DNA of 52,585 nucleotides from Bryobacteraceae bacterium CoA2 C42 (GTDB lineage: Bacteria > Acidobacteriota > Terriglobia > Bryobacterales > Bryobacteraceae), in the NCBI GenBank assembly GCA_019931245.1, contig JAINDL010000023.1:1-52585 (forward strand), in the 5' to 3' direction. Positions 24,028 to 39,005 of this stretch are shown piece after piece. Numbering within the stretch: the first letter of the stretch is position 1; each line of letters starts with the position of its first letter. The translations under genes were made by a program, and so were the position numbers. The notes below the pieces were generated by a model, which ran no database searches, was not told the origin of the DNA, and saw nothing but the letters and a program-made list of their open reading frames with translations.

Positions 24028-24061
24028 TCGGGATAATCTGAGAGGCTTTTGTTCGCTTTTT

Positions 24062-24079: not shown

Positions 24080-24116
24080 TCTGCCGAGGGGGCCGACGAT
24101 AGACTGGCAGGGCCAA

Positions 24117-24142
24117 GAAATCGTTCGGACAAGATCCGATGC
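24117..24142 (+). promoter_or_regulatory. Sigma-28 (FliA)-like promoter of fliW-csrA
   Basis: GAAA (24117-24120), a 15-nt spacer and CCGATGC (24136-24142) resemble the flagellar sigma-28 consensus TAAA-N15-GCCGATAA. The -10 half and the spacer are the same as in the promoters of flagellins 3 and 4; the -35 half has one mismatch. It is about 28 nt upstream of fliW. Flagellin 1 has no separate promoter that I can see, so it may be expressed from here. Confidence 0.55.
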
Positions 24143-24170
24143 GATTGAAGATCGGGCCTCTCGAAGGACT

Positions 24171-24659
24171 ATGGCGACGATAGACACCCAGCAATTTGGA
24201 ACGCTTCACTACAGTGAAGATGCGATTTTCGAGTTCCCGGAAGGGATCCCGGGGTTTGAGCATGCGCGTCACTTCGTCTGCGTGGAGCGCCCGAGTCTGC
24301 GGCCGATCACTTTCCTGCAAAGCATCGATGATCCGGGGGTCTGCTTCATCACGCTGCCGGCGAAGGCGGTGGAGCCGGACTATCAACTGGATCTGGCCAC
24401 GGAGGACTTACGGGCTCTGGGGTTGGCGGAGATGGAGAGCAGTCTGGCCTGCCTGGCGATCGTCTGCATGCCGCAGGATGCGGCGCCGACGGCCAACCTT
24501 CTTGGGCCGGTGGTGCTCTCCCGCGATACGATGCGTGGCGTCCAGGCAATCCGCGAGGACACGAAGTACTCGGCGGTCCATCCGCTGCGGACAACGCGGG
24601 CGGAGTCTGACGAAGAGAGCAGCGCGGCACTGGTAGCCACTGGAGACGCAGAGTGCTGA
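24171..24659 (+). CDS. fliW: Flagellar assembly factor FliW (CsrA antagonist)
   Basis: The 162-residue FliW protein has the family signature FGTLHYSEDAIFEFPEGIPGFEHARHF near the N-terminus, here from residue 10 on. YQLDLATEDLRALGL and the later ANLLGPVVLSRDTMRGVQAI also match. In Bacillus subtilis and others FliW binds either flagellin or CsrA; when flagellin is exported, freed FliW sequesters CsrA and relieves repression of flagellin translation. The gene overlaps csrA by 7 nt and both lie directly before four flagellin genes, which fits that circuit closely. The last 25 residues are acidic and poorly conserved. Confidence 0.95.
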   Translation: MATIDTQQFGTLHYSEDAIFEFPEGIPGFEHARHFVCVERPSLRPITFLQSIDDPGVCFITLPAKAVEPDYQLDLATEDLRALGLAEMESSLACLAIVCMPQDAAPTANLLGPVVLSRDTMRGVQAIREDTKYSAVHPLRTTRAESDEESSAALVATGDAEC

Positions 24660-24973
24660 TCATCCGGCGGCGGCGCGGCGAATCCATCACGGTGGGTGAT
24701 GATGTTGAGATTGAGATTCTGGAGACCTCCCCGACGCAGGTGAAGTTAGGAATCCGTGCTCCGAAAACTGTCGCGGTGCTGAGGAAAGAGATCCTCGTCA
24801 CCCGCGAGTTGAACCGTGCTGCTTCCGGCTCTCCGGCGGTAGACGACAAATTGAATACGCTGGCCGAACAGTACCGGGTCAGCGGAACGGTCCTGGTGCT
24901 GCCGGAAGCGGCGGTGCCGGGGGCGCTTGAAACGTCCCTTCCCCCTGTCCTTCAACCGAAACGCCACTCCTGA
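24653..24973 (+). CDS. csrA: Translational regulator CsrA with C-terminal extension
   Basis: It starts at GTG 24653 inside the end of fliW and encodes 106 residues. Residues 1-50 are a canonical CsrA core: MLIIRRRRGESITVGDDVEI, then VKLGIRAPKTVAVLRKEI. The core includes the basic face with Arg near positions 5-8 and 44 that binds GGA motifs. Typical CsrA is 60-75 residues. Here about 45 extra residues follow, with a helical NTLAEQYRVSG-like part and a Pro-rich end. In B. subtilis the C-terminal part of CsrA contacts FliW, so the extension could strengthen that partner switch. The presumed targets are the GGA hairpins before flagellins 1, 3 and 4. Confidence 0.93.
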   Translation: MLIIRRRRGESITVGDDVEIEILETSPTQVKLGIRAPKTVAVLRKEILVTRELNRAASGSPAVDDKLNTLAEQYRVSGTVLVLPEAAVPGALETSLPPVLQPKRHS

Positions 24974-25046
24974 AGCGTCTTCGGTTTCCCGCTACAGAAC
25001 AACCACTGAGAGGCAGCCCACGGCAGCAAAGGGTGGGCTGCGTTCC

Positions 25047-25062
25047 CGGGAATGGATTCCCG
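25047..25062 (+). promoter_or_regulatory. CsrA-binding-type hairpin 1 in flagellin 1 leader
   Basis: CGGGAA (25047-25052) and TTCCCG (25057-25062) enclose the loop TGGA. A GGA in the loop of a short stem is the textbook CsrA recognition element. A further GC-rich hairpin (25074-25091, loop CCCC) separates it from hairpin 2. The two GGA triplets are about 47 nt apart, within the range a CsrA dimer can bridge. Confidence 0.65.
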
Positions 25063-25093
25063 CATCCCCCATCCTCCGGCCCCCGCCGGAGTT

Positions 25094-25110
25094 GTTTCAA
25101 GGAGTGAAAC
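25094..25110 (+). promoter_or_regulatory. CsrA-binding-type hairpin 2 with Shine-Dalgarno in loop (flagellin 1)
   Basis: GTTTC (25094-25098) pairs with GAAAC (25106-25110) around the loop AAGGAGT, which holds both the Shine-Dalgarno AGGAG and a GGA. The stem ends directly against the ATG at 25111. CsrA bound here would block ribosome access, as at the second site of the B. subtilis hag leader. Confidence 0.75.
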
Positions 25111-27495
25111 ATGTCTTTTCGCATTAACACGAACATCGCCTCGCTGCAATCGCGCGAGTACCTGCGAACGACCACTGAGCAACAGGGTAAAGCCATTGGG
25201 CGGGTTACTTCGGGCCTGCGTATCCTGTCGAGTGGAGATGACGCGGCCGGGCTGTCGATCGCCAACAGCTTCCGCAGCGACCAGGCGGTCCTGCAGCAGG
25301 GTATTCGCAACGCCAACGATGGGTTGAGCACGCTGCAAACCATCGATGGCGGCATTAACAACATCAGCAAACTGCTCGACCGGGCAAGGACGCTTGCTAC
25401 GCAGTCCGCCTCCGGGACGTTTACGGGTAGCCGCGAGGTTCTCAACAGTGAGTTTTCGAGCGTGATCAACGAAATCGATCGCCAAGCGCAATCGATCGGT
25501 TTGAACACCGGCGGTGAGTTCGCCCGCTCGCTCTCTGTCTTCGTGGGAGGCGGCAAGAGTTCAAATGGGATCAACGCTATCCAGAACGGCGCTTCGAGGG
25601 TAGATCTGTCGAACTCGACGGTGGATGCCAAGAGCCTGGGATTGAAGGGCTCTCAGGCACAGGGCGTGCCCAGCATCGACATCGGCACGGGATCGGCCAA
25701 CACGAGCGTGGCCGCCATTATCAATGACCCAGCCAACTTGAGTTCACAGTCGGCGGCGGGGTTTACCGATTTCTACTTCCGCGGCCCCGGATTCGGGGGA
25801 GCCGACCGGGTGAAGGTTTCGGTAAACCTTTCGGGTGTGACGAACGTCGACAACCTCGTTGTGGCCATCAACTCCGCGATTGAGACCGCCGGCCAGGTGG
25901 TGAGCCCCGCCGCGACGGCTTTCGCGAATGCCAACCTGCGGGCCTCGGTGATCACGTCTCCGGACGGCAAGCGCTCGCTGGCTTTCTCCTCCGCCAACTC
26001 GGCATTCCAGGTGGCGGCGGGGGACCAGACGGCGAACGCGCTGCTTGGCAATGTGACATCGGCATCGAACCCGACGGGAACGACGCTGGCGAACAGCGTC
26101 ACCGGAGGTGGCAGTACCGCGGCAACAGGTACGGCGTTTGGGGCATCGGGCGCCGGCACTGTGACGGTCCGTTTCCAGGGCGCCGGACTCGCTTCCCCGG
26201 TCGATATCGCCCTGACCGTAACCGCGGGCACGACGATTGACCAAGCCTTAGCGAGTCTCTCGACCGCGGTGGGCGCCAGCGCCGGTTTACAGTCGGCGGG
26301 CATCCGGACGGATACCACCACGCCAGGGGCGGCGCTGGTCTTCAGCAGTTCGCGGGGGGAAAGGTTTGAGGTCCAGGTTTCGGGCGACCTGAACAATCAG
26401 CTTGGGCTGGGCAGCTTCCGGTCCTCCGGAGGCGCCACCGGTTCGTTTGACTACGCCTCGATCACCGGGTCCGCCGGCACGTTTGCGGCAGCGGCGCAGA
26501 CCTTGGAGTTCTCCCTGGGGGGCGGCCCGACGATCTCGCTGGCCGTCACGCCGACGGCGGCCTCCATCGCCGGAGCCACCCAGGGGCTGAACGCGGCCAT
26601 TGCCGGCAACGCCTCGCTGGCGGCGGCCGGCCTGGTGGCGACCAACGATGGCACGAACATCACGATCAGCAGCGGTAGCGGAACCCGCTTTCGCGTAGCA
26701 ACCGTTGGGGCCGCCAACGTCTTCGGTTTCAATGCGGTGGGAGCAACAGGAGTCGCGGATGCCGCCGAGGTCCAGGCGGGCAACACCAACGTGAATCAGT
26801 TTATCTCCGGGGGTACCCAGCAGACGGCACTGATTCCGTTTACGGCGATTCGCAGCGGCGGGGATGACCAGACCCTCACGCTGACAGCGGCTGAGAACGG
26901 CGACCCGGAGCAGTCGCTGGCTATCGTCCTGCGCAACGACGCGGTACGGAACGCAGGCACGGTGGACGAAGCGATCAGCGCGATCAACACGGCGCTAAAC
27001 CAATCGAACAACGCTACGCTGCAGAAGGTCTTTGCCGTGAAAGCGAAGACATCGGCGGGCGGACCGGAGGGCATTCAGTTTGTCAGTACACTGAACTCGT
27101 TTAAGGTAGCCGTGGGCACCAACGCTGGAGGTACCGGTTTGGGGTTACAGGGCACGGTGGTGGCTTCGGCCGCGACGGGGACGGGCGCTACGGCCAGCAT
27201 CGCCACCCAGGAGAGCGCGCAGGCGGCCGTATCCGCGCTCGCCGAGGCGGTCGTCTCGCTTGGGCAGGCACAAGCCGTGGTGGGCCGCGGACAGAATCAG
27301 TTCAACTTCGCGGTCAATCTGGCGGCGAGTCAGTTGACGAATCTGGCGGCCGCCGAGTCCCGGATCCGCGATGCCGATCTGGCCGAGGAGGCCGCGAATC
27401 TGACTAAGGCTCAGATTCTTCTCCAAGCCGGCGTTTCCGCGCTGGCCCAGGCGAACTCGGCGCCGGAACAGGTATTGTCGCTGCTGCGGCAGTAG
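25111..27495 (+). CDS. Giant flagellin 1
   Basis: This 794-residue filament protein has conserved flagellin ends. The N-terminus MSFRINTNIASLQSREYL with ASGDDAAGLSIANSF-like and IRNANDGLSTLQT segments forms D0/D1. The C-terminus SQLTNLAAAESRIRDADLAE with AANLTKAQILLQAG and a terminal leucine-rich helix completes D1/D0. Between about residues 175 and 690 lies a large insert of three to four repeating beta-rich modules, each with a Gly-rich strand, a V-I/A-x-x-I-N helix and a GERFEV-like strand, resembling flagellin-hook-IN-type domains. Flagellins usually have 270-500 residues. The insert is rich in Ser/Thr/Asn and would face the outside of the filament. No cysteine is present. Translation is probably controlled by the two leader hairpins. 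Confidence 0.93.
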   Translation: MSFRINTNIASLQSREYLRTTTEQQGKAIGRVTSGLRILSSGDDAAGLSIANSFRSDQAVLQQGIRNANDGLSTLQTIDGGINNISKLLDRARTLATQSASGTFTGSREVLNSEFSSVINEIDRQAQSIGLNTGGEFARSLSVFVGGGKSSNGINAIQNGASRVDLSNSTVDAKSLGLKGSQAQGVPSIDIGTGSANTSVAAIINDPANLSSQSAAGFTDFYFRGPGFGGADRVKVSVNLSGVTNVDNLVVAINSAIETAGQVVSPAATAFANANLRASVITSPDGKRSLAFSSANSAFQVAAGDQTANALLGNVTSASNPTGTTLANSVTGGGSTAATGTAFGASGAGTVTVRFQGAGLASPVDIALTVTAGTTIDQALASLSTAVGASAGLQSAGIRTDTTTPGAALVFSSSRGERFEVQVSGDLNNQLGLGSFRSSGGATGSFDYASITGSAGTFAAAAQTLEFSLGGGPTISLAVTPTAASIAGATQGLNAAIAGNASLAAAGLVATNDGTNITISSGSGTRFRVATVGAANVFGFNAVGATGVADAAEVQAGNTNVNQFISGGTQQTALIPFTAIRSGGDDQTLTLTAAENGDPEQSLAIVLRNDAVRNAGTVDEAISAINTALNQSNNATLQKVFAVKAKTSAGGPEGIQFVSTLNSFKVAVGTNAGGTGLGLQGTVVASAATGTGATASIATQESAQAAVSALAEAVVSLGQAQAVVGRGQNQFNFAVNLAASQLTNLAAAESRIRDADLAEEAANLTKAQILLQAGVSALAQANSAPEQVLSLLRQ

Positions 27496-27572
27496 GCGGC
27501 GGAGTTAGCATCCGGCCCGGAGCGGAAAGCTGGCCTCGCTAAGAGCATGCACACCCGTTTCGCCCTACCACC

Positions 27573-29969
27573 ATGTCATTCCGTGTCAACACCAACGTCG
27601 CCTCGCAGTTGTCGATGGAGTACTTGCGCAGCACTTCGGAGACACAGGGAAAAACGGTCAGCCGGCTCACCTCCGGACTTCGCATTCTCGCCAGTGGGGA
27701 TGATGCCGCAGGTTTGGCGCTCGCCAATGGTTCGCGCAGTGATCAGGCGATGCTGACGCAGGGACTACGCAACGCCAACGATGGATTGAGCACGCTGCAG
27801 ACGCTCGACGGCGGCCTCCGGAACATCACCGGGTTACTGGACCGGGCGCAGACGCTGGCGGCCCAGTCGGCTTCGGGAACCTTTCGCGGAGACCGCGGCG
27901 TGCTCCAAGGGGAGTTTGCCTCCGTGCTCGGCGAGATCGATCGTCAGGCACAGGCGATTGGCCTGTCCGCGGGCGGCGCCTTTGCGCGCGCCTTTGCGGT
28001 CTTTGTCGGCGGGGGCCGCGGATTAAACCGCGAAGCGGCTTCGAGCAACGGATCAGTGATGCTGGATCTGTCCAGTGCGGCGGTCGACACGAAGAGCCTG
28101 GGGCTGAACCGCGTTCAGGCACAAGGAATCGGCACGGTCGATATCGGGCCCAGCTCGCCAGCAACGAGCGTCCAGGCAATTCTGGCGAATACGGCCAACC
28201 GGGCCTCCAATACGGTGGCCGGGTTCACCGATTTCTTCTTCCGCGGCCCGGGCTTTGCCGGTGGTGAAAGGATCAAGGTATCGGTGAATTTGGCGGGCGT
28301 CACCACCGTCGACCAGCTCGTGACCAACATCAACGCCGCGATCACAGCGGCCGCCCAGCCCACGTCGCAACAGGCGACATCCTTTGAGAGCGCGGGGATC
28401 CGCGCCGCGGTGCTTACTGACAGCACGGGGCGGAAGTCGCTGAGCTTCAGTTCGGCTTCGGTCGCCTTCCAGGTCACGGCCGGTGACCGCCTCGCCAACG
28501 CGCTGCTGGGCAACGTGACGTCGAGTTCGAATCCGACCGGCCGGACGCTCGGTAACGTATTCACGACGAGCGGCAACATCGCGGCGGCGGGCACGACGTT
28601 CGGGTCCACGGGTGCCGGGACGGTGACGTTCCGATTCCAGGGTTCGAGCCTGGGGGCCCCCGTCGATATCGGCGTACCGGTGTCGGCGGCGACGACGATC
28701 AGTGAGGCGCTCGCCAGTCTGCGGTTGGCCGTGGCGGGCAACGCGGCTCTCCAGGCGGCCGGCCTGACGGTGTTGACGACGGCACCTGGAACCCCGATGA
28801 CGTTTGGAAACACACGGGGCGAGCGCTTCGAGGTGCTGACCTCCGGTGATGTGAACAACCGTTTTGCGATGGGATCCTACCAGGGTTCGTCGGGAGCGGG
28901 CGGCAGCTTCGACTACGCCACGATTACCGGTGCCGCTGGCGCGTTTGCCGCAGCCCCGGAGACGCTGGAGTTCTCGATCGGCGGCGGCGCCAAAGTGGCG
29001 TTTTCGGTGACCCCGGCGGTTCCTGGGATCGATGGCGCGACGACGGCGTTGAATGCAGCTTTTGCCAGTAACAGCGAGACCGCGATGGCGGGCCTGGTAG
29101 CCACCAACAACGGTGCAGCAATTACGATTTCGAGTGCGAACGGATCGCGGTTCCGGTTGAACTCGGTGGGGGCCACCAACGTTTTCGGTTTCAACGATCG
29201 GGGAGGGGTACCGGCGAACGGAGTAGCCGACATCGCCGAAATCCCGCCCGCGGGCACGCAAAATCACGCTTTTGCCGCCGGCGGTCTGCAACAGACCGGT
29301 CTGCTGAGTTTCTCCCCGATCCGGAACGGCGGCGACGATCAGACCATTACGGTCACCGCGGTCGACCCGTCCGGCGCGGACCAGTCGATGGCGCTGGTGC
29401 TGCGCAACGACAACACCGGACGGAACGCCGGCACGGTGGACGAGGCTGTACAGGCCATCAACAATGCGCTGCAGCAATCGAACAACGCGACTCTCCGCCA
29501 GATCATCGCGATCAAGGACAAGGCGACGACCGTTGGGCCGGACGGCATCCGGCTGATCAGCAATCTGTCCTCCTTCAAAGTCAGCATCGGCACGAACGCG
29601 GGGGGAACGGGGCTTGGCAATCAAGGAACGATTGTCAATGCGGCACTGGAGGGCAGTTCGATCACCGCCTCGGTGCTGACGAAGGAGGGAGCCGAGGACG
29701 CGTTGACGGCTCTCCGTGAAGCCGTAGCGAAGGTAGGAGTGGCGCAGGCCGTTGTCGGGCGCGGACAGAATCGGTTTACCTACGCGCTGAATCTGGCGCA
29801 GTCCCAGTTGACGAATCTGGCCGCCTCGGAGTCCCGGATTCGCGATGCGGACCTGGCCGAGGAGGCGGCCAAACTGACCAAGGGGCAGATTTTGCTACAG
29901 TCCGGCGTTGCGGCGCTGGCGCAGGCCAACTCTGCGCCGGAACAGGTCCTTGCGCTCCTCCGCGCCTAA
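27573..29969 (+). CDS. Giant flagellin 2 (leader lacks CsrA hairpins)
   Basis: The 798-residue paralogue has the same layout as flagellin 1, with terminal domains MSFRVNTNVASQLSMEYLRS and ESRIRDADLAEEAAKLTKGQ. It is the most divergent of the four at its N-terminal domain: SQLSMEYL replaces SLQSREYL, and ALANGSRSDQAMLTQGL replaces the common AIANSFRSDQ. The 77-nt gap from flagellin 1 contains no Shine-Dalgarno sequence, no GGA hairpin and no sigma-28 box. It therefore probably depends on read-through from flagellin 1 and weak initiation at 27573. It may be a minor filament component used at a specific position or stage. Confidence 0.92.
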   Translation: MSFRVNTNVASQLSMEYLRSTSETQGKTVSRLTSGLRILASGDDAAGLALANGSRSDQAMLTQGLRNANDGLSTLQTLDGGLRNITGLLDRAQTLAAQSASGTFRGDRGVLQGEFASVLGEIDRQAQAIGLSAGGAFARAFAVFVGGGRGLNREAASSNGSVMLDLSSAAVDTKSLGLNRVQAQGIGTVDIGPSSPATSVQAILANTANRASNTVAGFTDFFFRGPGFAGGERIKVSVNLAGVTTVDQLVTNINAAITAAAQPTSQQATSFESAGIRAAVLTDSTGRKSLSFSSASVAFQVTAGDRLANALLGNVTSSSNPTGRTLGNVFTTSGNIAAAGTTFGSTGAGTVTFRFQGSSLGAPVDIGVPVSAATTISEALASLRLAVAGNAALQAAGLTVLTTAPGTPMTFGNTRGERFEVLTSGDVNNRFAMGSYQGSSGAGGSFDYATITGAAGAFAAAPETLEFSIGGGAKVAFSVTPAVPGIDGATTALNAAFASNSETAMAGLVATNNGAAITISSANGSRFRLNSVGATNVFGFNDRGGVPANGVADIAEIPPAGTQNHAFAAGGLQQTGLLSFSPIRNGGDDQTITVTAVDPSGADQSMALVLRNDNTGRNAGTVDEAVQAINNALQQSNNATLRQIIAIKDKATTVGPDGIRLISNLSSFKVSIGTNAGGTGLGNQGTIVNAALEGSSITASVLTKEGAEDALTALREAVAKVGVAQAVVGRGQNRFTYALNLAQSQLTNLAASESRIRDADLAEEAAKLTKGQILLQSGVAALAQANSAPEQVLALLRA

Positions 29970-29970
29970 C

Positions 29971-29999
29971 GGGGGCGGGAGACCGCGAGGGTCGCCCCC
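29971..29999 (+). other. GC-rich hairpin after flagellin 2
   Basis: GGGGGCG (29971-29977) pairs with CGCCCCC (29993-29999), with an inner GACC/GGTC helix capped by GCGAG. It starts one nucleotide after the flagellin 2 stop and has no T-tract. It may protect the 3' end or act as a weak terminator. The rest of the gap to 30132 shows no gene. Confidence 0.4.
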
Positions 30000-30132
30000 A
30001 GGAGAGGCGGGCGGGGCGCGGAGCGGGAGCGGAAGAGCCGGTTCCGGGATGTTCCGGCGCCACGGTCGCCGCGGTCTACGTCCCGATAGGGATACAAGGA
30101 ATAAAAAATAGCTACTACCTCTCAGTTCGGGC

Positions 30133-30158
30133 TAAAGCTCTATCCTTCGATCCGATAA
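30133..30158 (+). promoter_or_regulatory. Sigma-28 (FliA) promoter of flagellin 3
   Basis: TAAA (30133-30136), 15 nt, then CCGATAA (30152-30158) is a near-consensus flagellar sigma-28 promoter (TAAA-N15-GCCGATAA). It lies about 68 nt upstream of the flagellin 3 ATG, leaving room for both leader hairpins in the mRNA. Confidence 0.8.
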
Positions 30159-30185
30159 GACCACTATGTCCGGCGATCTCGCCGG

Positions 30186-30202
30186 CCGGGAAGGATTCCC
30201 GG
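30186..30202 (+). promoter_or_regulatory. CsrA-binding-type hairpin 1 in flagellin 3 leader
   Basis: CCGGGAA (30186-30192) and TTCCCGG (30196-30202) are perfect complements around GGA. The core CGGGAA/TTCCCG is the same as in the leaders of flagellins 1 and 4. The GGA lies 23 nt upstream of the GGA in hairpin 2. Confidence 0.65.
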
Positions 30203-30208
30203 AGTTTG

Positions 30209-30225
30209 GTTTCAAGGAGAGAAAC
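30209..30225 (+). promoter_or_regulatory. CsrA-binding-type hairpin 2 with Shine-Dalgarno in loop (flagellin 3)
   Basis: GTTTC (30209-30213) pairs with GAAAC (30221-30225), with AAGGAGA in the loop, and touches the ATG at 30226. The stem is identical to that before flagellins 1 and 4. The element decides the start codon: the upstream in-frame ATG at 30166 lies before the hairpins and lacks a ribosome site. Confidence 0.75.
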
Positions 30226-32616
30226 ATGTCCTTTCGTGTAAACACGAACGTAGCCTCCCTGCAGTCGCGGGAGTATTTGCGCCAGACCTCAGAGGTGCAA
30301 GGAAAAACGATCAATCGCGTGACCTCCGGGTTGCGACTGGTCGCCAGTGGAGACGACGCCGCCGGGTTGGCGATCGCCAACTCGTTTCGAAGCGAGCAGG
30401 CGGTGCTATCGCAAGGCATCCGCAATGCGAACGATGGTTTGAGTTCGCTGCAGACGCTTGATGGCGGTATCAACAACATTGGCAAACTGCTCGACCGCGC
30501 CCGGACGCTGGCGACGCAATCGGCTTCCGGTACGTTTTCCGGCGACCGCAATGTGCTGAACAGTGAATTCAGCTCGGTCATCGGTGAAATTGACCGGCAG
30601 GCCCAGTCGGTGGGTCTGGCCACGGGCGGCACCTTTGCCAAGTCCCTTTCGGTGTTCATCGGCGGCGGGCGGACGTCGAACGGTATTTCTTCGACAGCCA
30701 ACGGATCGGTGGGAGTGGACCTGTCCACTTCAACGGTTGACGCCAAAAGCCTCGGATTGAAAGGGGTCCTCGCCCAGGGGGTGACGAGTACCGATATCGG
30801 AACCGGCTCAGCATCGACCAGCGTTTCGGCCATCGTGAATGACAGCACGAACCGTTCCTCGACGGCGGTATCCGGTTTCAGCGACTTCTACTTCCGGGGT
30901 CCGGGTTTTGGCGATGGCGACCAGATCCGGGTCGCGGTAAATCTGTCCGGGTCGACGAATGTGGACACGCTGGTTGCCAACATCAACACCGCGATCGAGT
31001 CGGCGGGCAGCGCCTCGACGCAGCAGGCAACGGCGTTTCGCAATTCCGGAATCCGGGCGCAGGTGATCACCGATGCGACGGGCAAGAAGTCGCTCGGCTT
31101 CACCTCGGCGTCCTCGGCGTTTCAAGTGTCGGCCGGTGACCGGCTTTCGAATGCGCTGCTCGGCAACGTCACGTCGACATCGAACCCGACGGGTTTGACG
31201 CTGACCAACACCGTCACGGGCGGCGCCGCGACAGCCGCGGCGGCCACGACGTTCGGCGCCGGGGGAGCAGGAACGATCGGCGTGCGATTTCAGGGAGCGA
31301 ACCTGACCAGCGCGATCGATATTTCTCTGACCGTTGCAGCCGGCACGACCATTGAGCAAGCCCTGGGGAGCCTGACATCAGCGGTGTCCGCCAACTCTGC
31401 GCTGCAGTCGGCTGGCATCTCGGTGCAGACGGCAACGGCGGGTTCGGCGCTGGTGTTTGCCAACTCCCGCGGCGAACGCTTTGAGGTCCTGGCATCGGGC
31501 GACCTGCAGAACCGGCTTGGCCTCGGATCGTTCCGCAGTTCTACCGGCGCCGGAGGCACCTTCGACTACTCGACGGTTTCCGCCGCGACGGCTGGATCGT
31601 TCGCCGCGGGTCAGACGATTGAGTTCTCCATTGGCGGCGGACCGACGGAGTCTCTGACCGTGGGAGCCCCTGCGACAGCCACGGTCGCCGATGCTACGAT
31701 TGCGCTGAACGCGGCGATTGCCGAGAACAGTACGCTGTCGGCTGCCGGCCTTCGGGCGACCAACGATGGCACGGTGCTGACCCTGGAAAGCACCACCGGC
31801 ACGAAGTTCCGGATCGCCGCGCTGGGCGCCACCAACGCCTTCGGCTTCAACACGGCGGGCGCGACTTCGGTGGCGGATGCGGCCGAGGTCCAGGCCGGGA
31901 ACACTACCGTTAACTCCTTCCTCGGCGGAGGGGTGCAGCAGACGAGTCTGCTGAGCTTCTCTGCGATCCGCAACGGTGACGACGACCAGACGATCACCTT
32001 GTCAGCCAACGATGTGGCCGGTTCGGCGCAGTCGCTTTCCGTGATTCTGCGCAACGACACGACGACCCGGAACGCAGGCACGGTCGATGAGGCCATCGAC
32101 TCGATCAACCAGGCGCTGCAGCAATCGAACAACAGCACCCTGCGGCAGATTGTAGCGGTCAAGGACAAGGCCAGTGCGGCGGGCGCCGAAGGGATCCGCT
32201 TCACCAGCACGCTGGCCTCGTTCAATGTCGGGATCGGTACCAACAAGAGCAACACAGGCATTGGCAGCCAAGGCACGATCGTGACCGCCGCCACCGCAGG
32301 ATCCGGGTCGACCGCATCGGTGGAGAGCCAGGCAGCGGCCGAACGTGCGGTCACCGCTCTCGGCGAGGCCATCTCGAAACTCGGCACGGCGCAAGCCGTT
32401 GTCGGCCGGGGTCAGAACCAGTTCACCTTTGCGGTGAATCTGGCCCAATCGCAGTTGACCAACCTGGCAGCCTCCGAGTCCCGGGTCCGCGATGCGGACC
32501 TGGCCGAGGAAGCGGCCAACCTGACCAAGGCGGGGATTCTGCTCCAGGCCGGCATTTCGGCTCTGGCGCAGGCCAACTCGGCGCCGCAGCAGGTGGTTTC
32601 CCTGCTTCGAGGCTAA
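30226..32616 (+). CDS. Giant flagellin 3
   Basis: The 796-residue flagellin starts at ATG 30226. It has the conserved ends MSFRVNTNVASLQSREYLRQ and SESRVRDADLAEEAANLT, and an about 500-residue Ala/Ser/Thr/Gly-rich insert of repeated beta modules as in flagellin 1. It has its own sigma-28 promoter and both CsrA-type hairpins, so it is probably a major, independently expressed filament subunit. It is followed 24 nt later by the seven-copy terminator array. Closest paralogue by eye is flagellin 4, especially over the first 150 residues. Confidence 0.93.
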   Translation: MSFRVNTNVASLQSREYLRQTSEVQGKTINRVTSGLRLVASGDDAAGLAIANSFRSEQAVLSQGIRNANDGLSSLQTLDGGINNIGKLLDRARTLATQSASGTFSGDRNVLNSEFSSVIGEIDRQAQSVGLATGGTFAKSLSVFIGGGRTSNGISSTANGSVGVDLSTSTVDAKSLGLKGVLAQGVTSTDIGTGSASTSVSAIVNDSTNRSSTAVSGFSDFYFRGPGFGDGDQIRVAVNLSGSTNVDTLVANINTAIESAGSASTQQATAFRNSGIRAQVITDATGKKSLGFTSASSAFQVSAGDRLSNALLGNVTSTSNPTGLTLTNTVTGGAATAAAATTFGAGGAGTIGVRFQGANLTSAIDISLTVAAGTTIEQALGSLTSAVSANSALQSAGISVQTATAGSALVFANSRGERFEVLASGDLQNRLGLGSFRSSTGAGGTFDYSTVSAATAGSFAAGQTIEFSIGGGPTESLTVGAPATATVADATIALNAAIAENSTLSAAGLRATNDGTVLTLESTTGTKFRIAALGATNAFGFNTAGATSVADAAEVQAGNTTVNSFLGGGVQQTSLLSFSAIRNGDDDQTITLSANDVAGSAQSLSVILRNDTTTRNAGTVDEAIDSINQALQQSNNSTLRQIVAVKDKASAAGAEGIRFTSTLASFNVGIGTNKSNTGIGSQGTIVTAATAGSGSTASVESQAAAERAVTALGEAISKLGTAQAVVGRGQNQFTFAVNLAQSQLTNLAASESRVRDADLAEEAANLTKAGILLQAGISALAQANSAPQQVVSLLRG

Positions 32617-32640
32617 TCGGCTTCGGCAAACTGGTCGTTG

Positions 32641-32920
32641 ACATGGCCCGGATGGTTTCCGCCGTCCGGGCGTTTTTTCGACATGGCCCGGATGGTTTCT
32701 ACCGTCCGGGCGTTTTTTCAACATGGCCCGGATGGTTTCCGCCGTCCGGGCGTTTTTTCGACATGGCCCGGATGGTTTCCACCGTCCGGGCGTTTTTTCG
32801 ACATGGCCCGGATGGTTTCCGCCGTCCGGGCGTTTTTTTGACATGGCCCGGATGGTTTCCGCCGTCCGGGCGTTTTTTTGACATGGCCCGGATGGTTTCC
32901 GCAGTCCGGGCGTTTTTTCG
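32641..32920 (+). repeat. Seven tandem 40-bp repeats, each an intrinsic terminator hairpin
   Basis: Units begin at 32641, 32681, 32721, 32761, 32801, 32841 and 32881, each exactly 40 bp with no spacer. In every unit GCCCGGA (unit positions 6-12) pairs with TCCGGGC (25-31) across a 12-nt loop, followed by G and six or seven T. Both stem arms are identical in all seven copies. The few substitutions lie in the loop (unit positions 20-23) or in the last two bases. The T-tract orientation means each unit would stop plus-strand transcription, i.e. read-through from flagellin 3 towards flagellin 4. The reading frames that cross it are by-products of the 40-bp period. Confidence 0.9.
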
Positions 32921-32924
32921 TTTT

Positions 32925-32950
32925 GCCCGAGTGCGCTCGATCGTTCGGGC
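32925..32950 (+). repeat. Degenerate eighth unit of the terminator array
   Basis: GCCCGA (32925-32930) pairs with TCGGGC (32945-32950), followed by GTTCT instead of a full T-run. Position and stem resemble the array units, but the sequence has diverged and the T-tract is lost. Confidence 0.5.
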
Positions 32951-32960
32951 GTTCTGGATT

Positions 32961-32996
32961 GCCCCGGCCGAAAACTTCGCGCTTCCCGGCCGGGGC
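32961..32996 (+). other. Perfect 10-bp GC hairpin downstream of the array
   Basis: GCCCCGGCCG (32961-32970) is complementary to CGGCCGGGGC (32987-32996) with a 16-nt loop. It has no T-tract. It adds another stable structure between the array and the flagellin 4 promoter. Nothing else is visible in 32997-33062. Confidence 0.5.
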
Positions 32997-33062
32997 GCCC
33001 GGCGGGTCGGAGAATCCGCATCTACCCCCCCGACAATTCTTACCTTACTCCCGGTATTCCCC

Positions 33063-33088
33063 TAAATTTTTTCTCCTGGCTCCGATGA
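33063..33088 (+). promoter_or_regulatory. Sigma-28 (FliA) promoter of flagellin 4
   Basis: TAAA (33063-33066), 15 nt, then CCGATGA (33082-33088) fits the sigma-28 consensus with one -10 mismatch. Spacing is identical to the flagellin 3 and fliW promoters. It is about 66 nt upstream of the ATG. Confidence 0.75.
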
Positions 33089-33114
33089 GACCTGCATAAG
33101 AGCTAAACGCCGGT

Positions 33115-33129
33115 CGGGAAGGATTCCCG
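33115..33129 (+). promoter_or_regulatory. CsrA-binding-type hairpin 1 in flagellin 4 leader
   Basis: CGGGAA (33115-33120) and TTCCCG (33124-33129) enclose GGA. The hairpin and its 23-nt distance to the next GGA match the flagellin 3 leader. Confidence 0.65.
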
Positions 33130-33136
33130 GTAACTG

Positions 33137-33153
33137 GTTTCAAGGAGAGAAAC
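33137..33153 (+). promoter_or_regulatory. CsrA-binding-type hairpin 2 with Shine-Dalgarno in loop (flagellin 4)
   Basis: GTTTC (33137-33141) pairs with GAAAC (33149-33153) around AAGGAGA and ends at the ATG at 33154. It is the same as the element before flagellin 3. Confidence 0.75.
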
Positions 33154-35541
33154 ATGTCATTTCGAGTGAACACAAACGTAGCGTCTCTGCAGTCGCGGGA
33201 GTACCTGCGCCAGACTTCCGAGTCGCAATCAAAAACGATCAGCCGCGTAACCTCCGGTGTACGCCTGGTGACCAGCGGCGACGACGCGGCCGGATTGTCG
33301 ATCGCCAATTCTTACCGTAGCGATCAGACCGTCCTTGCCCAGGGCATCCGCAACGCCAACGATGGATTGAGCACCCTCCAGACGCTGGACGGGGGCCTCA
33401 ACAACATCGGGAAACTGCTTGACCGAGCTCGTACGCTGGCGACGCAGTCGGCTTCGGGCACGTTTTCGGGAGACCGCGGCGTGCTGAATTCCGAGTTTGC
33501 CTCGGTGATCGGTGAAATTGACCGGCAGGCGCAGTCGGTGGGCCTATCCGCGGGCGGCAGCTTTGCCAAGTCGTTATCGGTGTTTATTGGCGGCGGCCGG
33601 TCTGCCAACGGCATCTCGTCGACGGCCAACGGATCGGTTTCGGTGGATCTATCGACCTCTTCGGTCGATGCCAAGAGCCTCGGGCTTCGCGGCGTACAGG
33701 CGCAAGGGGTTGGCTCGATCGATATCGGATCCGGTTCGGTGTCCACGAGCGTCCAGGCGATCCTGAACGATGCGACGAACAAGAGCTCGCAGGCGGTCAG
33801 CGGCTTCACGGATTTCTACTTCCGCGGCGCCGGTTTCGGCGACAGCAACCAAATCAGGGTCTCCGTCAACACCAACGGTGTCACCGATCTTGACAGCGCG
33901 GTATCGGCTCTTAACGCGGCGCTCGATACGGCGGGAACCGCGTCGACGCAGGCGGCCACGGCTTTCCGGAACGCGGGCATTCGCGCCGCCGCGGTGACGG
34001 ATTCGACCGGGAAGCGCTCGCTGAGCTTCACTTCGGCCTCCTCGTCTTTTCAGGTCGCTGCGGGCGACCGCACGTCGAACGCCCTGCTCGGAAACGTGAC
34101 TTCGACGAGTAACCCCACGGGGTTGACGCTGAGCAACACGGTGACGGGTGGGGCCAGCGTGGCCGCGGCGGGCACGACGCAGGCTTCGAGCAACGGCACG
34201 ATTACGGTTCGGGTTCAGGGCGCAAGCCTGGCCTCCCCGGTCGATCTCGCGCTTTCCGTGACCGGCGGCACCACGACGGTATCCCAGGTCCTGAGCTCCT
34301 TAACCTCGGCCGTAGCCGGCAACTCGGCCCTGCAGGCGGCGGGCATTTCGTTGGGAACCGCAACGGCCGGCTCGGCGCTCGTCTTCAACAACTCCCGCGG
34401 GGAGCGGTTCGAGGTCCAGGCATCGGGTGACCTGAACAACATTCTCGGACTTGGTTCGTACCGGGGTTCGACGGGCGCCGGCGGCAGCTTTGACTACACC
34501 TCGCTTACCGGGTCGGGAAACGTGTCGGCCGGCACAAACAATCTTGAGATCTCGGTGGGAGGCGGAGCGGCCGTCGCCCTGAGCGTTACGTCTACCGCAG
34601 TAGGCCAGACCACCGCCGATGCGTTGAATTCCGCCTTTGCGAGCAACTCTACCCTGGCGGCAGCCGGATTGAATGCCACGGCTTCCGGAAACGTCATCAC
34701 CATCGCCAGCAGCACGGGCACGAGCTTCCGGCTGAACTCGGTGGGCGCCAGTGACTTTTTGGGGCTGAATGCCGCGACGGCCACCGGTGTCGCCGATACC
34801 GGCAACGCTCAGGCCGGCAACACGACCGTCAACTCGTTCGTCTCGGCAGGATCGCAGCAGACCAGCACGCTGACCTTCAATGCGATTCGCAACGCTGACG
34901 ACGACCAGACCATCACCATCTCGGCCAACGATGCCGCTGGTAATGCGCAGTCGCTATCGGTGAATCTGGCAAATGATGCCACGACGAGAAATGCCCGCAC
35001 GGTGGATGAAGCCATCGGCGCCATCAACACCCAACTGCAGCAATCGAACAACTCGACACTGCGGCAGATCGTGGCCGTAAAGGCCAAGGATAACGCGAGC
35101 GGCGCTGAGGGAATTCGCTTCACGAGCACGCTCTCTTCGTTCCGGATTGGGGTCAGTACCAACAAAAGCAATACGGGTATCAGCGGCGGGGTCCAGGGCA
35201 CCGTGGTCACGGCTTCCACGGTCGGCACCGGTTCGACGGCGTCGATTGATAGCGAAGGGGGCGCCTCGCGGGCGGTGTCGGCACTCAGTGAGGCGGTGAC
35301 GCGGCTCGGTACGGCGCAAGCCAATATCGGCCGTGGTCAGAACCAGTTCACCTTCGCTGTGAACCTAGCGCAATCCCAGTTAACCAACCTGGCGGCTTCC
35401 GAGTCCCGGATCCGCGACGCGGACCTGGCGGAAGAAGCTGCCAATCTGACGAAAGCCCAGATTCTGCTGCAGGCCGGTATTTCGGCGCTGTCGCAGGCCA
35501 ACTCGGCGCCGCAGCAGGTGCTGTCCCTCCTGCGGGGTTGA
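33154..35541 (+). CDS. Giant flagellin 4
   Basis: The 795-residue flagellin has conserved ends (MSFRVNTNVASLQSREYLRQ; ESRIRDADLAEEAANLTKAQ) and a long repeated-module insert rich in Ser, Thr and Asn. Modules show the same landmarks as the other copies: DFYFRGAGFGDSNQIRVSVN, SRGERFEVQASGDL and EGIRFTSTL. Its insert differs from flagellin 3 at many positions while the leader and terminal domains are nearly the same. This pattern fits duplication with faster change of the surface-exposed part. It has a sigma-28 promoter, two CsrA-type hairpins and a strong terminator, making a self-contained unit. Confidence 0.93.
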   Translation: MSFRVNTNVASLQSREYLRQTSESQSKTISRVTSGVRLVTSGDDAAGLSIANSYRSDQTVLAQGIRNANDGLSTLQTLDGGLNNIGKLLDRARTLATQSASGTFSGDRGVLNSEFASVIGEIDRQAQSVGLSAGGSFAKSLSVFIGGGRSANGISSTANGSVSVDLSTSSVDAKSLGLRGVQAQGVGSIDIGSGSVSTSVQAILNDATNKSSQAVSGFTDFYFRGAGFGDSNQIRVSVNTNGVTDLDSAVSALNAALDTAGTASTQAATAFRNAGIRAAAVTDSTGKRSLSFTSASSSFQVAAGDRTSNALLGNVTSTSNPTGLTLSNTVTGGASVAAAGTTQASSNGTITVRVQGASLASPVDLALSVTGGTTTVSQVLSSLTSAVAGNSALQAAGISLGTATAGSALVFNNSRGERFEVQASGDLNNILGLGSYRGSTGAGGSFDYTSLTGSGNVSAGTNNLEISVGGGAAVALSVTSTAVGQTTADALNSAFASNSTLAAAGLNATASGNVITIASSTGTSFRLNSVGASDFLGLNAATATGVADTGNAQAGNTTVNSFVSAGSQQTSTLTFNAIRNADDDQTITISANDAAGNAQSLSVNLANDATTRNARTVDEAIGAINTQLQQSNNSTLRQIVAVKAKDNASGAEGIRFTSTLSSFRIGVSTNKSNTGISGGVQGTVVTASTVGTGSTASIDSEGGASRAVSALSEAVTRLGTAQANIGRGQNQFTFAVNLAQSQLTNLAASESRIRDADLAEEAANLTKAQILLQAGISALSQANSAPQQVLSLLRG

Positions 35542-35570
35542 TTAACCCACAACAAGCTCCTCCGTCCCTT

Positions 35571-35605
35571 GGCCCGGATTGTGCGAACAATCCGGGCCCT
35601 TTTTT
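35571..35605 (+). terminator. Intrinsic terminator of flagellin 4
   Basis: GGCCCGGATTGT (35571-35582) and ACAATCCGGGCC (35587-35598) form a perfect 12-bp stem with a GCGA tetraloop, followed by C and six T. The stem base GCCCGGA/TCCGGGC is the same as that of the array units at 32641-32920, suggesting a common origin. The gap 35606-35993 contains no gene or promoter that I can support. Confidence 0.92.
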
Positions 35606-35993
35606 CTCTCCACGGCAAGGCACCCGCCGGCGCCGGCGGTGACCGGGTCGCGCGAGTCCGGTGGGCGGGAAGACCGCATGCGCGGGAGTCCGCAGGGCTG
35701 ACCAGCCGGCGGGCACCGTCCCGGGACCCGGATGGCCTCTGGCCGGGCGGACCGAGACCGGCTTGTGGAGTCGCGGGCCGTTTCCTTCCGGCAGGACGCT
35801 GCTGGCGTCAGATCCGTTGCAAGGGAGCTGCTTTTCTGTACTTACCGCCGCGCCGGAGTTGCCGGGAGACGCTACCGGGGCGGAGATCGCGGGCGCACCG
35901 GGATCACCTGACCATCCCGCCGGAACAATCCGGGAGCACTTCTTCGCCTGCCCCGGTGGCGGATGACTCCGGCCCCGTCGATAGTGGGAGGAG

Positions 35994-37868
35994 ATGCAGG
36001 GGGCGGCACGGAAAATCGAGAGGGCGCAGCGGCTCCACCAGGCAGGCCGCTGGCGGGAAGCCGAGGGACTGTATCTGGAGGCGCTCGAACAGTCGCCGGG
36101 CGAGGCGGAGGGGCTCCACCTGCTCGGGCTGCTCCACGCCGAGACGGGCCGTCCGGATACGGCTGTGCAGTTGCTGCGGGCGGCCATCGGCCTGGAAGGC
36201 CCCGCGCCCCACCTGTGCCGGAATCTGGGGATTTTGCTCGAACGGCAGAATCAGCCGGAGGCCGCGGTGGCCTGCTACCGGCAGGCGCTCGCCGGGCAGC
36301 CGCAGGAGTCGGGCCTGTGGGTCCGGGTGGCCGAGTTGCTTGGGGGCCTCGGACGTTTCGGAGAGGCGGCCGAGGCCTGGCACAGCGCTGCGCAGAGCAG
36401 ACCGGACGCGGACCGGGAGCGAGTCGCCTGGCTGGTGGCCCGAGCGCAAAATCTGGCGCTGGCCGGTGAGCACGAACAGGCGCGGATGGAGTTGGCGTCC
36501 ATTCTGCAGAAGCACCCGCAGGAGACCGCGGCCCGCTATACGCTGGGGGTCGTCTTCATGCATCTGGACCGGATCGGGCCAGCGGTCGAGGCGTTCGCGC
36601 AGGTAGTGGCCGACGACCCGACGCACGCTGACGCCCAGAACAATCTGGGGGTTCTGCGCCAGAGTCTGGGCGAAACCGCCCGCGCCCGGCAGCACTATGC
36701 GGCGTGCCTGGCCGTCCGCCCGGAGAGCATGGGCGCCCGCTACAACCTGGGAACGCTGCTCCAGGAGATGGGGGAGATTGCCGCGGCGATGGCGGAGTTG
36801 CGGGAGGTTCTCGCCAAGGATCCGGAGCACGCCGGCGCTTGGACCAACCTCGGCAGCTGCCTGCTGGGCCAGGGCGATCTCGAGGGAGCGGTCCGCTGTG
36901 CCGAGCGGGCGCTCACGCTCGACCCGACGGAGCCTTCGGCCGTCTGGAACGCCGGGCTGGCCCATCTGACCGCCGGGCGGCTGACCGAAGGCTGGCGTGG
37001 CTACGAGGCCCGTTTCGAGATCCCCGGCGCTTTTCCGCGGCGGCCCTTTGCGATGCCGCTCTGGACGGGGGAGCCGGTCGTGGGACGGACGATTCTGGTT
37101 TACGCCGAGCAGGGCCTGGGCGACACCCTGCAGTTTTGCCGCTACCTGCCGGTATTGTCGGCGCGAGGCGCGCGGGTGATCTTTGAATGTCCGCCGAAGC
37201 TGCGACCGCTGCTCGAGACGCTCGACCCGCGGCCGGAGTTCGTCCTGGCGCCGGCGGACCCGGCGCCCGCGGCCGATTATCATGTTCCCCTGCTCAGCGT
37301 GCCAGGTCTCGTGGGCACCACGATAGGGACGATCCCGTGCGCGCCCCGCTACCTGGCCGCGCCGGAGACGGCGCGGGAGCGCTGGCGGACGCGCCTCGCC
37401 CCGCTGCGGCCGCGACGCCTTGTTGGCTTCGTTTCGCAAGGCAACCCAAAATACAAGAACGACCGCAACCGGAGCACCGGCTTCGGCGCCTGGGAACCCG
37501 TGGGATCGCTCCCCGGCGTGGCGCTGGTGCACCTGCAGTACGGGGTCGCCGCGCCGCCCGCGCTGGTGGCGCTCGACCTGGGGCCGGAGGTGGGCGACTT
37601 TGCCGACACGGCCGGGCTGGTCGAGGAGCTCGACCTGGTGATTACCGTTGATACTTCGATGGTGCACCTGGCCGGTGCGCTCGGCAAGCCGGCCTGGCTG
37701 TTGCTGCCCTACGCCGCCGACTGGCGCTGGCTGCAGAACCGGAGCGACTCGCCGTGGTACCCGTCGCTGCGGATCTTCCGCCAGCCGCGACCGGGCGACT
37801 GGACGGCGGTGATGGGCGAGGTGGCAACGGCGCTGGTCGAAGTTGCGCGGGACGGGCGATTTGTGTAA
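35994..37868 (+). CDS. TPR-repeat protein with GT9/OGT-like glycosyltransferase domain
   Basis: The product has 624 residues. About eight tetratricopeptide repeats fill residues 1-330 (for example GRWREAEGLYLEALEQSPGE and AGAWTNLGSCLLGQGDLEGA). The C-terminal domain from about 345 carries ILVYAEQGLGDTLQFCRYLP and, near the end, ITVDTSMVHLAGALGKPAW, typical of glycosyltransferase family 9/heptosyltransferase-like folds attached to TPRs. Such proteins are often soluble and modify proteins or glycans. Its place directly after the flagellin genes makes flagellin glycosylation an attractive role, but this is inference. The start at ATG 35994 has a GGGAGGAG ribosome site. It is 15 nt upstream of the aminotransferase gene. 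Confidence 0.82.
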   Translation: MQGAARKIERAQRLHQAGRWREAEGLYLEALEQSPGEAEGLHLLGLLHAETGRPDTAVQLLRAAIGLEGPAPHLCRNLGILLERQNQPEAAVACYRQALAGQPQESGLWVRVAELLGGLGRFGEAAEAWHSAAQSRPDADRERVAWLVARAQNLALAGEHEQARMELASILQKHPQETAARYTLGVVFMHLDRIGPAVEAFAQVVADDPTHADAQNNLGVLRQSLGETARARQHYAACLAVRPESMGARYNLGTLLQEMGEIAAAMAELREVLAKDPEHAGAWTNLGSCLLGQGDLEGAVRCAERALTLDPTEPSAVWNAGLAHLTAGRLTEGWRGYEARFEIPGAFPRRPFAMPLWTGEPVVGRTILVYAEQGLGDTLQFCRYLPVLSARGARVIFECPPKLRPLLETLDPRPEFVLAPADPAPAADYHVPLLSVPGLVGTTIGTIPCAPRYLAAPETARERWRTRLAPLRPRRLVGFVSQGNPKYKNDRNRSTGFGAWEPVGSLPGVALVHLQYGVAAPPALVALDLGPEVGDFADTAGLVEELDLVITVDTSMVHLAGALGKPAWLLLPYAADWRWLQNRSDSPWYPSLRIFRQPRPGDWTAVMGEVATALVEVARDGRFV

Positions 37869-37883
37869 TCGGTAGAGATATCC

Positions 37884-39005
37884 ATGCAGCCGGTACTCCT
37901 GAACGACTTCAAGCGCCAATGGTCCGAGATCGGGGCGGAGGTGCGTGGCGCGGTCGACGCGGTGGGGGCCAGCGGCTGGTATGTGCTTGGTACCCAGGTG
38001 GAGGGATTTGAGCGGGATCTGGCGCAGTTCTGGGGTCTGAAGCACGCGATCGGGGTGGCGAGCGGACTGGACGCCCTCGAGATTGGCCTCCGCGCCCTCG
38101 GCCTTCGCTGCGGCGACCGAGTGCTCACAACGCCGCTTTCGGCCTTCGCCACCACCATGGCGATAGTACGGCTGGGGGGTGTGCCGGTGTTCTGCGACAC
38201 TGATGCAAACGGGCTGCTCGATCTCACCGCGGCCGAAGCCGTGCTGGAGGCCGAACCGGGCATCCGCTTCCTGCTGCCGGTGCACCTGTTCGGGCAGTGC
38301 CTGGACCTCGACCGGCTGGCGGCCCTGCGGAACCGGTTCGGGGTAACGATTCTTGAAGACTGCGCACAGTCGATCGGGGCGGCGTGGGACGGCAGGGCAA
38401 CGGGAACGGTGGGGCGACTGGCGGCGACGAGCTTCTATCCGACCAAGAACCTGGGGGCGCTGGGCGATGGCGGGGCGGTGCTGACCGGGGATGCGGAACT
38501 GGCGACCCAGGTCCGGCGGCTGCGCGACTACGGCCAGAGCGCCAAGTACCGGCACGACGAGATCGGCTGGAACAGCCGGCTCGATGAGTTACAGGCGGCG
38601 ATTCTGGCCGCGGCCCTGCTGCCGCGGCTGCGGGAGTGGACGCTGCGCCGGCAGCAGGTCGCCGCAGCGTATACGGCCGGCATCCGGCATCCCGGGGTGC
38701 ATCTGCTCCGGCCCGCGGCACCCGGCACCTCGTGTGAGCATCTGTTTCCGGTGAGGGTGGCGGCGGCGCAGCGGGAGCATTTTGAAGCGCATTTGAAATC
38801 GCGCGGCATTGCGACGGGCCGGCACTATCCGATCCTCATCCCCGACCAGCAGGCGATGGCCGGGGTGGCTTACGCGCGGCACGGGGATCTCGGGGTCGCG
38901 CGGGCGCTGGCTGGGGGCGAGGTCAGCCTACCGATTCACCCGCAGCTGACGGCCGAAGAGGTGGAGCGGGTGGTTACGGCCGTCAACGAGTGGACCGTCC
39001 GCTAA
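37884..39005 (+). CDS. DegT/DnrJ/EryC1/StrS-family sugar aminotransferase
   Basis: The 373-residue PLP-dependent enzyme transfers an amino group to a nucleotide keto-sugar. The catalytic Lys188 is in SFYPTKNLGALGDGG. GLDALEIGLRALG, PVHLFGQ and ILEDCAQSIGAAWDGR are also family signatures, as is GWNSRLDELQAAIL. The usual product would be an amino-deoxy sugar for surface glycans, as in the pseudaminic or bacillosamine-type pathways. Next to a TPR-glycosyltransferase and four flagellins it may supply an amino sugar for flagellin. The other sugar-pathway genes are not in the window. Confidence 0.9.
   Translation: MQPVLLNDFKRQWSEIGAEVRGAVDAVGASGWYVLGTQVEGFERDLAQFWGLKHAIGVASGLDALEIGLRALGLRCGDRVLTTPLSAFATTMAIVRLGGVPVFCDTDANGLLDLTAAEAVLEAEPGIRFLLPVHLFGQCLDLDRLAALRNRFGVTILEDCAQSIGAAWDGRATGTVGRLAATSFYPTKNLGALGDGGAVLTGDAELATQVRRLRDYGQSAKYRHDEIGWNSRLDELQAAILAAALLPRLREWTLRRQQVAAAYTAGIRHPGVHLLRPAAPGTSCEHLFPVRVAAAQREHFEAHLKSRGIATGRHYPILIPDQQAMAGVAYARHGDLGVARALAGGEVSLPIHPQLTAEEVERVVTAVNEWTVR

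Follow-up and report, generated by a model that had tools for sequence, protein, structure and literature searches.

Why should seven near-identical terminators stand one behind the other between two flagellin genes? The stretch of DNA analyzed here (52,585 nucleotides from Bryobacteraceae bacterium CoA2 C42, hereafter the window) contains fliW and csrA followed by four flagellin genes of about 800 residues, and an earlier note on its sequence had described seven tandem 40-bp complete intrinsic terminators between the last two of them. Our analysis confirmed the array, its folds and its T tracts. The array is real, correctly located and more than chance, and it needs no new mechanism. Judging from sequence comparisons and predicted folds, we consider it probable (roughly 0.7) that local tandem duplication multiplied and homogenized the ordinary terminator of flagellin 3 to give the array, and that the array insulates flagellin 4.

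The seven units lie head-to-tail, free of insertions or deletions and with 95% matches (TRF 40 x 7.0). Each forms a hairpin with an 11-bp stem, including two U.G pairs in most copies, and a 4-nt loop; the earlier note had given a 7-bp stem and a 12-nt loop, the 7 bp being the perfect lower part of the actual stem. In all seven units the hairpin is followed directly by G and six or seven T, a T tract present on the + strand only. The first hairpin begins 29 nt past the flagellin 3 stop codon, and the combination of a G+C-rich hairpin with an immediate U tract on the sense strand after a stop codon is that of an intrinsic terminator. Folding of every unit, which the earlier note had suggested, returned the hairpin in 7/7 cases at −16.9 to −23.3 kcal/mol, with six units at −22.5 or below and z-scores of −2.6 to −5.9 against dinucleotide shuffles. 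An array-wide fold added spacer-spacer pairing in the long RNA and retained the seven local hairpins. All seven units were recovered by a purpose-written terminator detector and six by a stock terminator scan, which missed unit 7. The features of the locus are collected in Table 1.

Table 1. Positions of the array and associated features in the window, and contigs carrying arrays of a second, dispersed repeat (last line).
Feature	Coordinates	Strand	Basis or remark
Sigma-28-like motif TAAA-N15-CCGATAA, flagellin 3	30133..30158	+	Pattern match, starts 93 nt before ATG
Flagellin 3 gene (fliC3), followed by the array	30226..32616	+	Pfam Flagellin_N and Flagellin_C; ATG placed at 30226
Seven-unit 40-bp intrinsic-terminator array	32640..32919	+	TRF, sequence, folds
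Unit 1: 11-bp hairpin 32646-32671 and T tract	32646..32678	+	−22.8 kcal/mol, z −4.5
Unit 7: weakest; column 24 C to A breaks one stem pair	32880..32919	+	−16.9 kcal/mol, z −2.6
Decayed eighth unit: mismatched stem, T run lost (GTTCTGG)	32925..32950	+	Sequence, alignment
G+C-rich inverted repeat GCCCCGGCC ... GGCCGGGGC, without T run, between array and flagellin 4 promoter	32961..32996	+	Sequence
Sigma-28-like motif TAAA-N15-CCGATGA, flagellin 4	33063..33088	+	Pattern match, starts 91 nt before ATG
Flagellin 4 leader: GGGAAGGATTCCC hairpin with GGA in loop, then GTTTC-AAGGAGA-GAAAC around Shine-Dalgarno	33116..33153	+	CsrA-site-like
Flagellin 4 gene (fliC4), would be insulated by array	33154..35541	+	Pfam Flagellin_N and Flagellin_C
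Single flagellin 4 terminator, GCCCGGAT...ATCCGGGC core as in array	35572..35604	+	−24.4 kcal/mol, z −6.8
Arrays of GCGCACAACGG...GGCCTGTGCGC repeat			Window's genome C97, C185; G010 C55, C182, C185, C313, C327, C342; G016 C78

Two other readings of the repeat were rejected. Neighboring units adjoin directly and resemble each other almost perfectly along their 40 bp, without the unique spacers of a CRISPR array. Open frames of 140 aa (+) and 339 aa (−) run through the array region, one on each strand, but a coding repeat was dropped because 40 bp is not divisible by three and a relative, G016, has a single unit. The window gave no Rfam match at the gathering threshold.

To place the array among its relatives, the last 75 residues of flagellin 3 were used as a query against 61 genomes, giving matches in 37, and the DNA of positions 32380-33160 was searched against 19 genomes of the genus, giving matches in 18 that mostly covered the flagellin end alone. 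Among the 18 other genomes of the genus, the gene end, the terminator region and the whole adjoining leader side were matched in G010 and G016 only; several of the 18 are incomplete, so that absence of the locus elsewhere is not proven. G009 matches into the first unit by way of the terminator of its last flagellin. At the array position G016 has one perfect hairpin, and G010 has three intact units and one decayed unit with a 42-bp period. The comparison of copy number that the earlier note had proposed thus gives 7+1 in the window, 3+1 in G010 and 1 in G016, for three species only.

The window's flagellin 3 shares 89% identity with its counterpart in G010 (partial, 634 residues) and 82.6% with that in G016, and flagellins 3 and 4 are 67-76% identical to each other, well below these between-species values. 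Flagellin 4 is 74.7% identical to the window in G010 and 78.0% in G016 (between-species range 73.5-78%); as this overlaps the 67-76% range, gene order and the conserved promoter and leader are the basis for calling it orthologous. The decayed eighth unit of the window can be aligned with its decayed counterpart in G010, the fourth unit there, and the two have their right flank in common, so that at least two units probably predate the split between these species. Each species then probably homogenized its own loop, spacer and period.

Does the variation among units point to selection, to homogenization, or to both, as the earlier note had left open? In the window, five of the 40 columns vary. 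The 7-bp arms make up 14 of the columns and contain none of the five, so the arms are literally invariant as claimed, but such sparing is not significant (chance P 0.10) and is by itself no evidence of selection; extending the set to the six T columns gives P 0.024, for a set chosen post hoc. In the corrected fold, two of the five variable columns sit within the 11-bp stem: in units 2 and 4 column 22 turns a U.G pair into the stronger U-A, and column 24 has its G-C pair broken in unit 7. Given the P of 0.10 and these two columns, the array alone is without proof of selection. Of the nine variable columns of the G010 array, the 11-bp stem and the T tract hold three each, and the changes lie mostly in the decayed distal unit; comparison of the first three G010 units alone leaves three variable columns, with the stem and the T tract accounting for one each. 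Stem arms varying as freely as loops in relatives would have spoken against the earlier note, and G010 comes near to this, although mostly through that decayed unit. Loop, spacer and period are common to the units of one species and differ between species (40 vs 42 bp), which supports homogenization within species.

Comparison between species was extended to 22 hairpins, drawn from nine genomes and comprising array units, flagellin 4 terminators and the last-flagellin terminators of six members of the genus. Stem pairs 1-5 are invariant across all 22, and pairs 6, 7, 8, 9, and 11 show compensated or G.U-preserving changes. Pair 7 occurs as A-U, G-C or G.U, pair 8 as U.G or U-A, pair 9 as G-C, U-A or U.G and pair 11 as U-A or U.G; at the array locus of the three species, the states are A-U and G-C for pair 7 (a two-sided change counted as one event in a three-species comparison) and U.G and U-A for pairs 8 and 11. 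Pair 9 is G-C in the array, whereas most terminators of flagellin 4 or of a last flagellin have U-A there. In 5/22 hairpins (win7, win8, G010_4, G010_f4, and G016_f4) the stem has one or two broken pairs. Among the three array species the loop varies (TTCC, CTTG, and TTCG), and one loop is common to five of the six last-flagellin terminators. A stem that is mostly kept while its loop varies is the pattern of an ordinary conserved terminator. Selection on the hairpin is therefore a part of the earlier note's proposal that finds support between species, in these compensating changes, and not in the variation within the array.

Multiplied terminators appear to be rare behind flagellin genes. Within 330 nt of 63 distinct flagellin 3′ regions (a count that leaves out matches ending before query residue 70 and duplicates, compared over the first 150 and then 60 bases), no terminator was detected in 39 regions and exactly one in 22; the remaining two are G010 with three and the window with seven. 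The window and loci L038-L075 together gave 60 terminators, clustered only at the array loci of the window and G010 (the latter seen twice), in a scan of 1,214,576 bases counted on both strands that covered partly overlapping loci and left out the 3-kb loci L001-L037. A sample of the window's genome (293,453 bases from 20 contigs) held 17 terminators with no adjacent pair, and two consecutive CGGGCnTTTTT sites occurred in 2/61 genomes, at the array locus only.

In the strictest neutral account the array is a minisatellite, whose units past the first are slippage debris with no notable effect on transcription; this and the selected barrier discussed below are versions of the preferred reading, so that their odds overlap with it. 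We regard the neutral account as a serious possibility, somewhat short of an even chance. It would explain the copy numbers of 7+1, 3+1, and 1 between sister species and agrees with the non-significant sparing of the arms and with the presence of other tandem minisatellites in the window's genome, but it sits less easily with proximal units that all remain complete terminators and with the homogenization of the units.

The surroundings of the array suggest what a terminator would separate. A sigma-70 promoter scan of positions 24000-36600 found none, and a hand-made pattern built on a sigma-28-like motif was used instead. Applied to the window and 12 loci, this pattern gave eight matches in 6/13 sources and none in the other seven. 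The flagellin 3 motif was found also in L056 (G016) and L058 (G010), and the flagellin 4 motif is conserved in all three species with the flagellin 3-4 gene pair. In the flagellin 4 leader the predicted unpaired probability of the GGA is 0.997 at 33121 and 0.3 at 33144, and the same pair, one GGA exposed in a hairpin and the other at the Shine-Dalgarno, is found in the flagellin 3 leader (30188-30225). With regard to AAGGA sites, flagellin 2 has neither and flagellin 1 the second only. Flagellins 3 and 4, each with its own promoter motif and leader, thus appear to be transcribed separately, and it is reasonable for a terminator to lie between the two. Most of the GCCCGGAT...TCCGGGC core is common to the flagellin 3 and flagellin 4 terminators, which suggests that both descend from one ancestor through flagellin duplication. 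No comparable terminator was found at the 3′ ends of flagellins 1 and 2 of the window.

Several further observations concern this region. CsrA-site-like flagellin leaders lie at 33116-33153, 30188-30225 and 25094-25110, and the Shine-Dalgarno hairpin TTTCAAGGAGAGAAACATG is identical in 36/162 loci, overlapping loci counted. Just 5′ of the flagellin 4 sigma-28-like motif, G010 and G016 share a well-conserved stretch with the window, GACAATTCTTACCTTACTCCC (33032-33052), and similar stretches, identified by eye, precede flagellins in several relatives; the stretch is possibly an activator site. Directly after the flagellins, positions 35994-39005 encode a TPR protein and a DegT-family aminotransferase, perhaps for flagellin glycosylation, and in some relatives the last flagellin seems (by eye) to be followed by a similar frame start.

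Since tandem terminators here stand between flagellins with their own promoter motifs, a block to read-through, among the roles proposed in the earlier note, is the natural one; a read-through valve tuned by copy number, also raised there, is a possible role. A stronger form of this idea holds that copy number itself has been selected, as an ultra-strong or tuned barrier that stops read-through transcripts of a strongly expressed flagellin from disturbing the independently controlled flagellin 4 promoter. In its favor both flagellins carry a sigma-28-like motif and leader sites, arrays occur in two of the three species, and the proximal units are intact; but a single unit suffices in G016, flagellins 1 and 2 of the window lack a comparable 3′ terminator, and the distal decay (unit 8 and weakened unit 7 in the window, unit 4 and weakened unit 3 in G010) is also expected under neutral turnover. 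Selection for copy number itself therefore seems unlikely to us.

Under the preferred reading, a terminator duplicated in place that insulates flagellin 4, RNA polymerase leaving flagellin 3 would meet up to seven successive hairpin and U-tract signals. It would be released at one of the first units, with later units catching escapees, and flagellin 3 transcription would be kept out of flagellin 4 with its own sigma-28-like promoter and CsrA-like leader. The units would arise by local tandem duplication, through replication slippage or unequal recombination that is probably aided by the hairpins, and the same turnover would keep them alike while the unit at the distal edge escapes it and decays. 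Termination at each unit, the mechanism of duplication, and the small contribution expected of copies beyond the first few are all deduced from the DNA.

Seven units are not needed, given that one serves in G016 and exactly one was detected in 22/63 flagellin 3′ regions. Single terminators of Escherichia coli are often leaky, with at least 5% read-through reported at 75% of termination sites (PMC6131387), and clusters of hairpins have been proposed to terminate better than single hairpins (Gupta and Pal, 2021; PMC8355165), so additional units could help. As G016 manages with one unit and any benefit should saturate, however, a mostly redundant terminator block is favored, and the extra copies are probably largely redundant. 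The three species offer a natural copy-number series (1, 3+1, and 7+1) behind orthologous flagellins, in which the effect of extra terminators on read-through and the expansion of hairpins by slippage are directly testable.

The copy number of seven comes from one draft assembly, and an assembly artefact in a metagenome-type draft of 237 contigs, with tandem repeats at several contig ends, has to be weighed. We consider it very improbable: units 5 and 6 are identical, but substitutions distinguish the other units, the longest exact repeat inside the array is 63 bp, so ordinary reads are long enough to resolve it, and a different array stands at the corresponding place in G010. Perfect 13- and 17-bp tandem repeats were seen at the contig starts of L081, L094, and L095 in the window's genome, which suggests that the assembly breaks at tandem arrays. 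In L050, from a Bryobacter sp., a 17-bp tandem repeat of about 7.5 copies (TTTCCGGTGCCCCTAAG) lies downstream of a flagellin.

The earlier note had also raised a CsrA sponge or a source of stem-loop RNAs, since each unit has one GGA, and the array stands about 8 kb downstream of csrA and fliW. The GGA is buried in the stem, with a predicted unpaired probability of 0.000-0.001 in 7/7 units, and is not exposed in the loop in G010 or G016 either. CsrA sites typically present an A(N)GGA motif in a loop, a context that the units lack, and the CsrA-like sites at this locus are those of the leaders. Units 2-7, lying past the first terminator, would moreover be little transcribed. Both roles appear highly implausible.

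The search for T runs also led beyond the flagellin locus. A pattern of three T5 runs 22-48 nt apart matched 19/19 genomes of the genus, mostly in apparent coding sequence (by eye, and for G012 among the matches listed), and the same search revealed further arrays. Their repeat consists of GCGCACAACGG...GGCCTGTGCGC followed by a T run, is dispersed, and forms tandem arrays of 38-44-bp units. A strict pattern for this GCGCACA family occurs in 3/61 genomes, at 9 places in the window's genome, 14 in G010, and 5 in G016; in a 93-bp long form the GCGCACA/TGTGCGC arms enclose a second hairpin, and a short form measures about 43 bp. A 184-base probe for the family gave matches in 15/19 genomes of the genus, with 62 in the window's genome, 57 in G010, and 53 in G016, at 40 scored candidates per genome. 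Examples are L111:1-176, L113:1712-2098, and L123:1229-1674 (G000, G010, and G016). A scripted survey of 43 loci found 119 elements in 44 groups, one locus being empty, and at least five T within the next eight bases followed 68 of the 119 elements and did not follow 51.

The orientation of these groups relative to neighboring genes was counted at loci picked from earlier search matches rather than at random, two of which give two groups each. The count omits L087, L102-L105, L107, L108, and L109 (L107 and L108 overlap loci that were used), and frames were called by a codon-position G+C heuristic, not by a gene finder. Sense orientation was seen in 14/16 groups with an upstream open frame ending ≤60 nt away (two-sided binomial P 0.004), in 21/36 groups with any upstream frame, and in 6/23 groups with a downstream frame. 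Another 40-bp repeat is present in six copies on C109 of G012 (L119:2087-2331) and in three on C105 of G013 (L130); it is a weak hairpin of the CGGCTGGTT type (−3.2 to −7.4 kcal/mol) before T-rich sequence. By eye, neither the GCGCACA family nor the G012/G013 repeat has sequence similarity to the flagellin unit. It is a tentative suggestion, less likely than its contrary, that tandem terminator arrays recur in this acidobacterial lineage and that a spreading repeat may supply genes with multi-copy terminators. If the dispersed terminator-like repeats also terminate, repeats would be shaping transcript ends genome-wide. The copy-number series in sister species and this unexpected repeat family in the same genomes are what lift the finding.

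Matches to Y1 (REP-type) transposases, several of them partial, were seen in G000 and G016 (L155-L162), and none was found in G010. A dispersed mobile element of REP, REPIN, or MITE type, inserted and amplified at the array locus, would fit genomes that hold a dispersed tandem palindromic family and such transposase matches, but is scarcely credible given that the 40-bp unit has no further copy in the 6.07-Mb draft genome (237 contigs) at ≤3 mismatches and thus lacks the dispersal of such elements, that the window matches the GCGCACAACGG arm of the dispersed family only at chance level, and that G016 has a single terminator at the array position.

How does the array compare with known systems? 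REP, BIME, and REPIN sequences are palindromic hairpin units clustered after genes; they resemble the dispersed GCGCACA family, whereas the flagellin array unit is not dispersed. In Bacillus subtilis, hag is subject to FliW-CsrA-flagellin control, and the locus studied here is similar in that fliW and csrA adjoin the flagellins and the leaders have two GGA sites, one at the Shine-Dalgarno; this likeness concerns the flagellin leaders, not the terminator array. Redundant terminators are routinely engineered, and a natural tandem pair, T1-T2, follows the highly expressed rrnB unit of E. coli, consisting of two unlike terminators where the window has a repeat array. Among the matches listed in the open-access (PMC) literature, none describes a naturally occurring array of near-identical or repeated terminators.

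Two published cases also bear comparison. The BrickBuilt element of Porphyromonas gingivalis carries a 23-nt repeat in a dispersed element at 19 places and, like the array, consists of short tandem units in intergenic regions near terminators; unlike the array unit, its unit is not described as a terminator in the sections of that article cited here (PMC4596501). The clusters of Gupta and Pal (2021; PMC8355165), among whose cited cases are the tandem hairpins of mycobacterial gyrA, resemble the array in having hairpins less than 15 nt apart, just after the stop codon, and the hairpin spacing of 14 bases in the window falls within that limit. Their commonest cluster has two hairpins, and near-identical units are not described in the cited sections, whereas the array has seven homogenized copies, every one with an 11-bp stem and a T tract of its own; that study counts stems of >10 bp as long. 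To the known tandem terminators the array adds homogenized, near-identical copies, probably made by local duplication.
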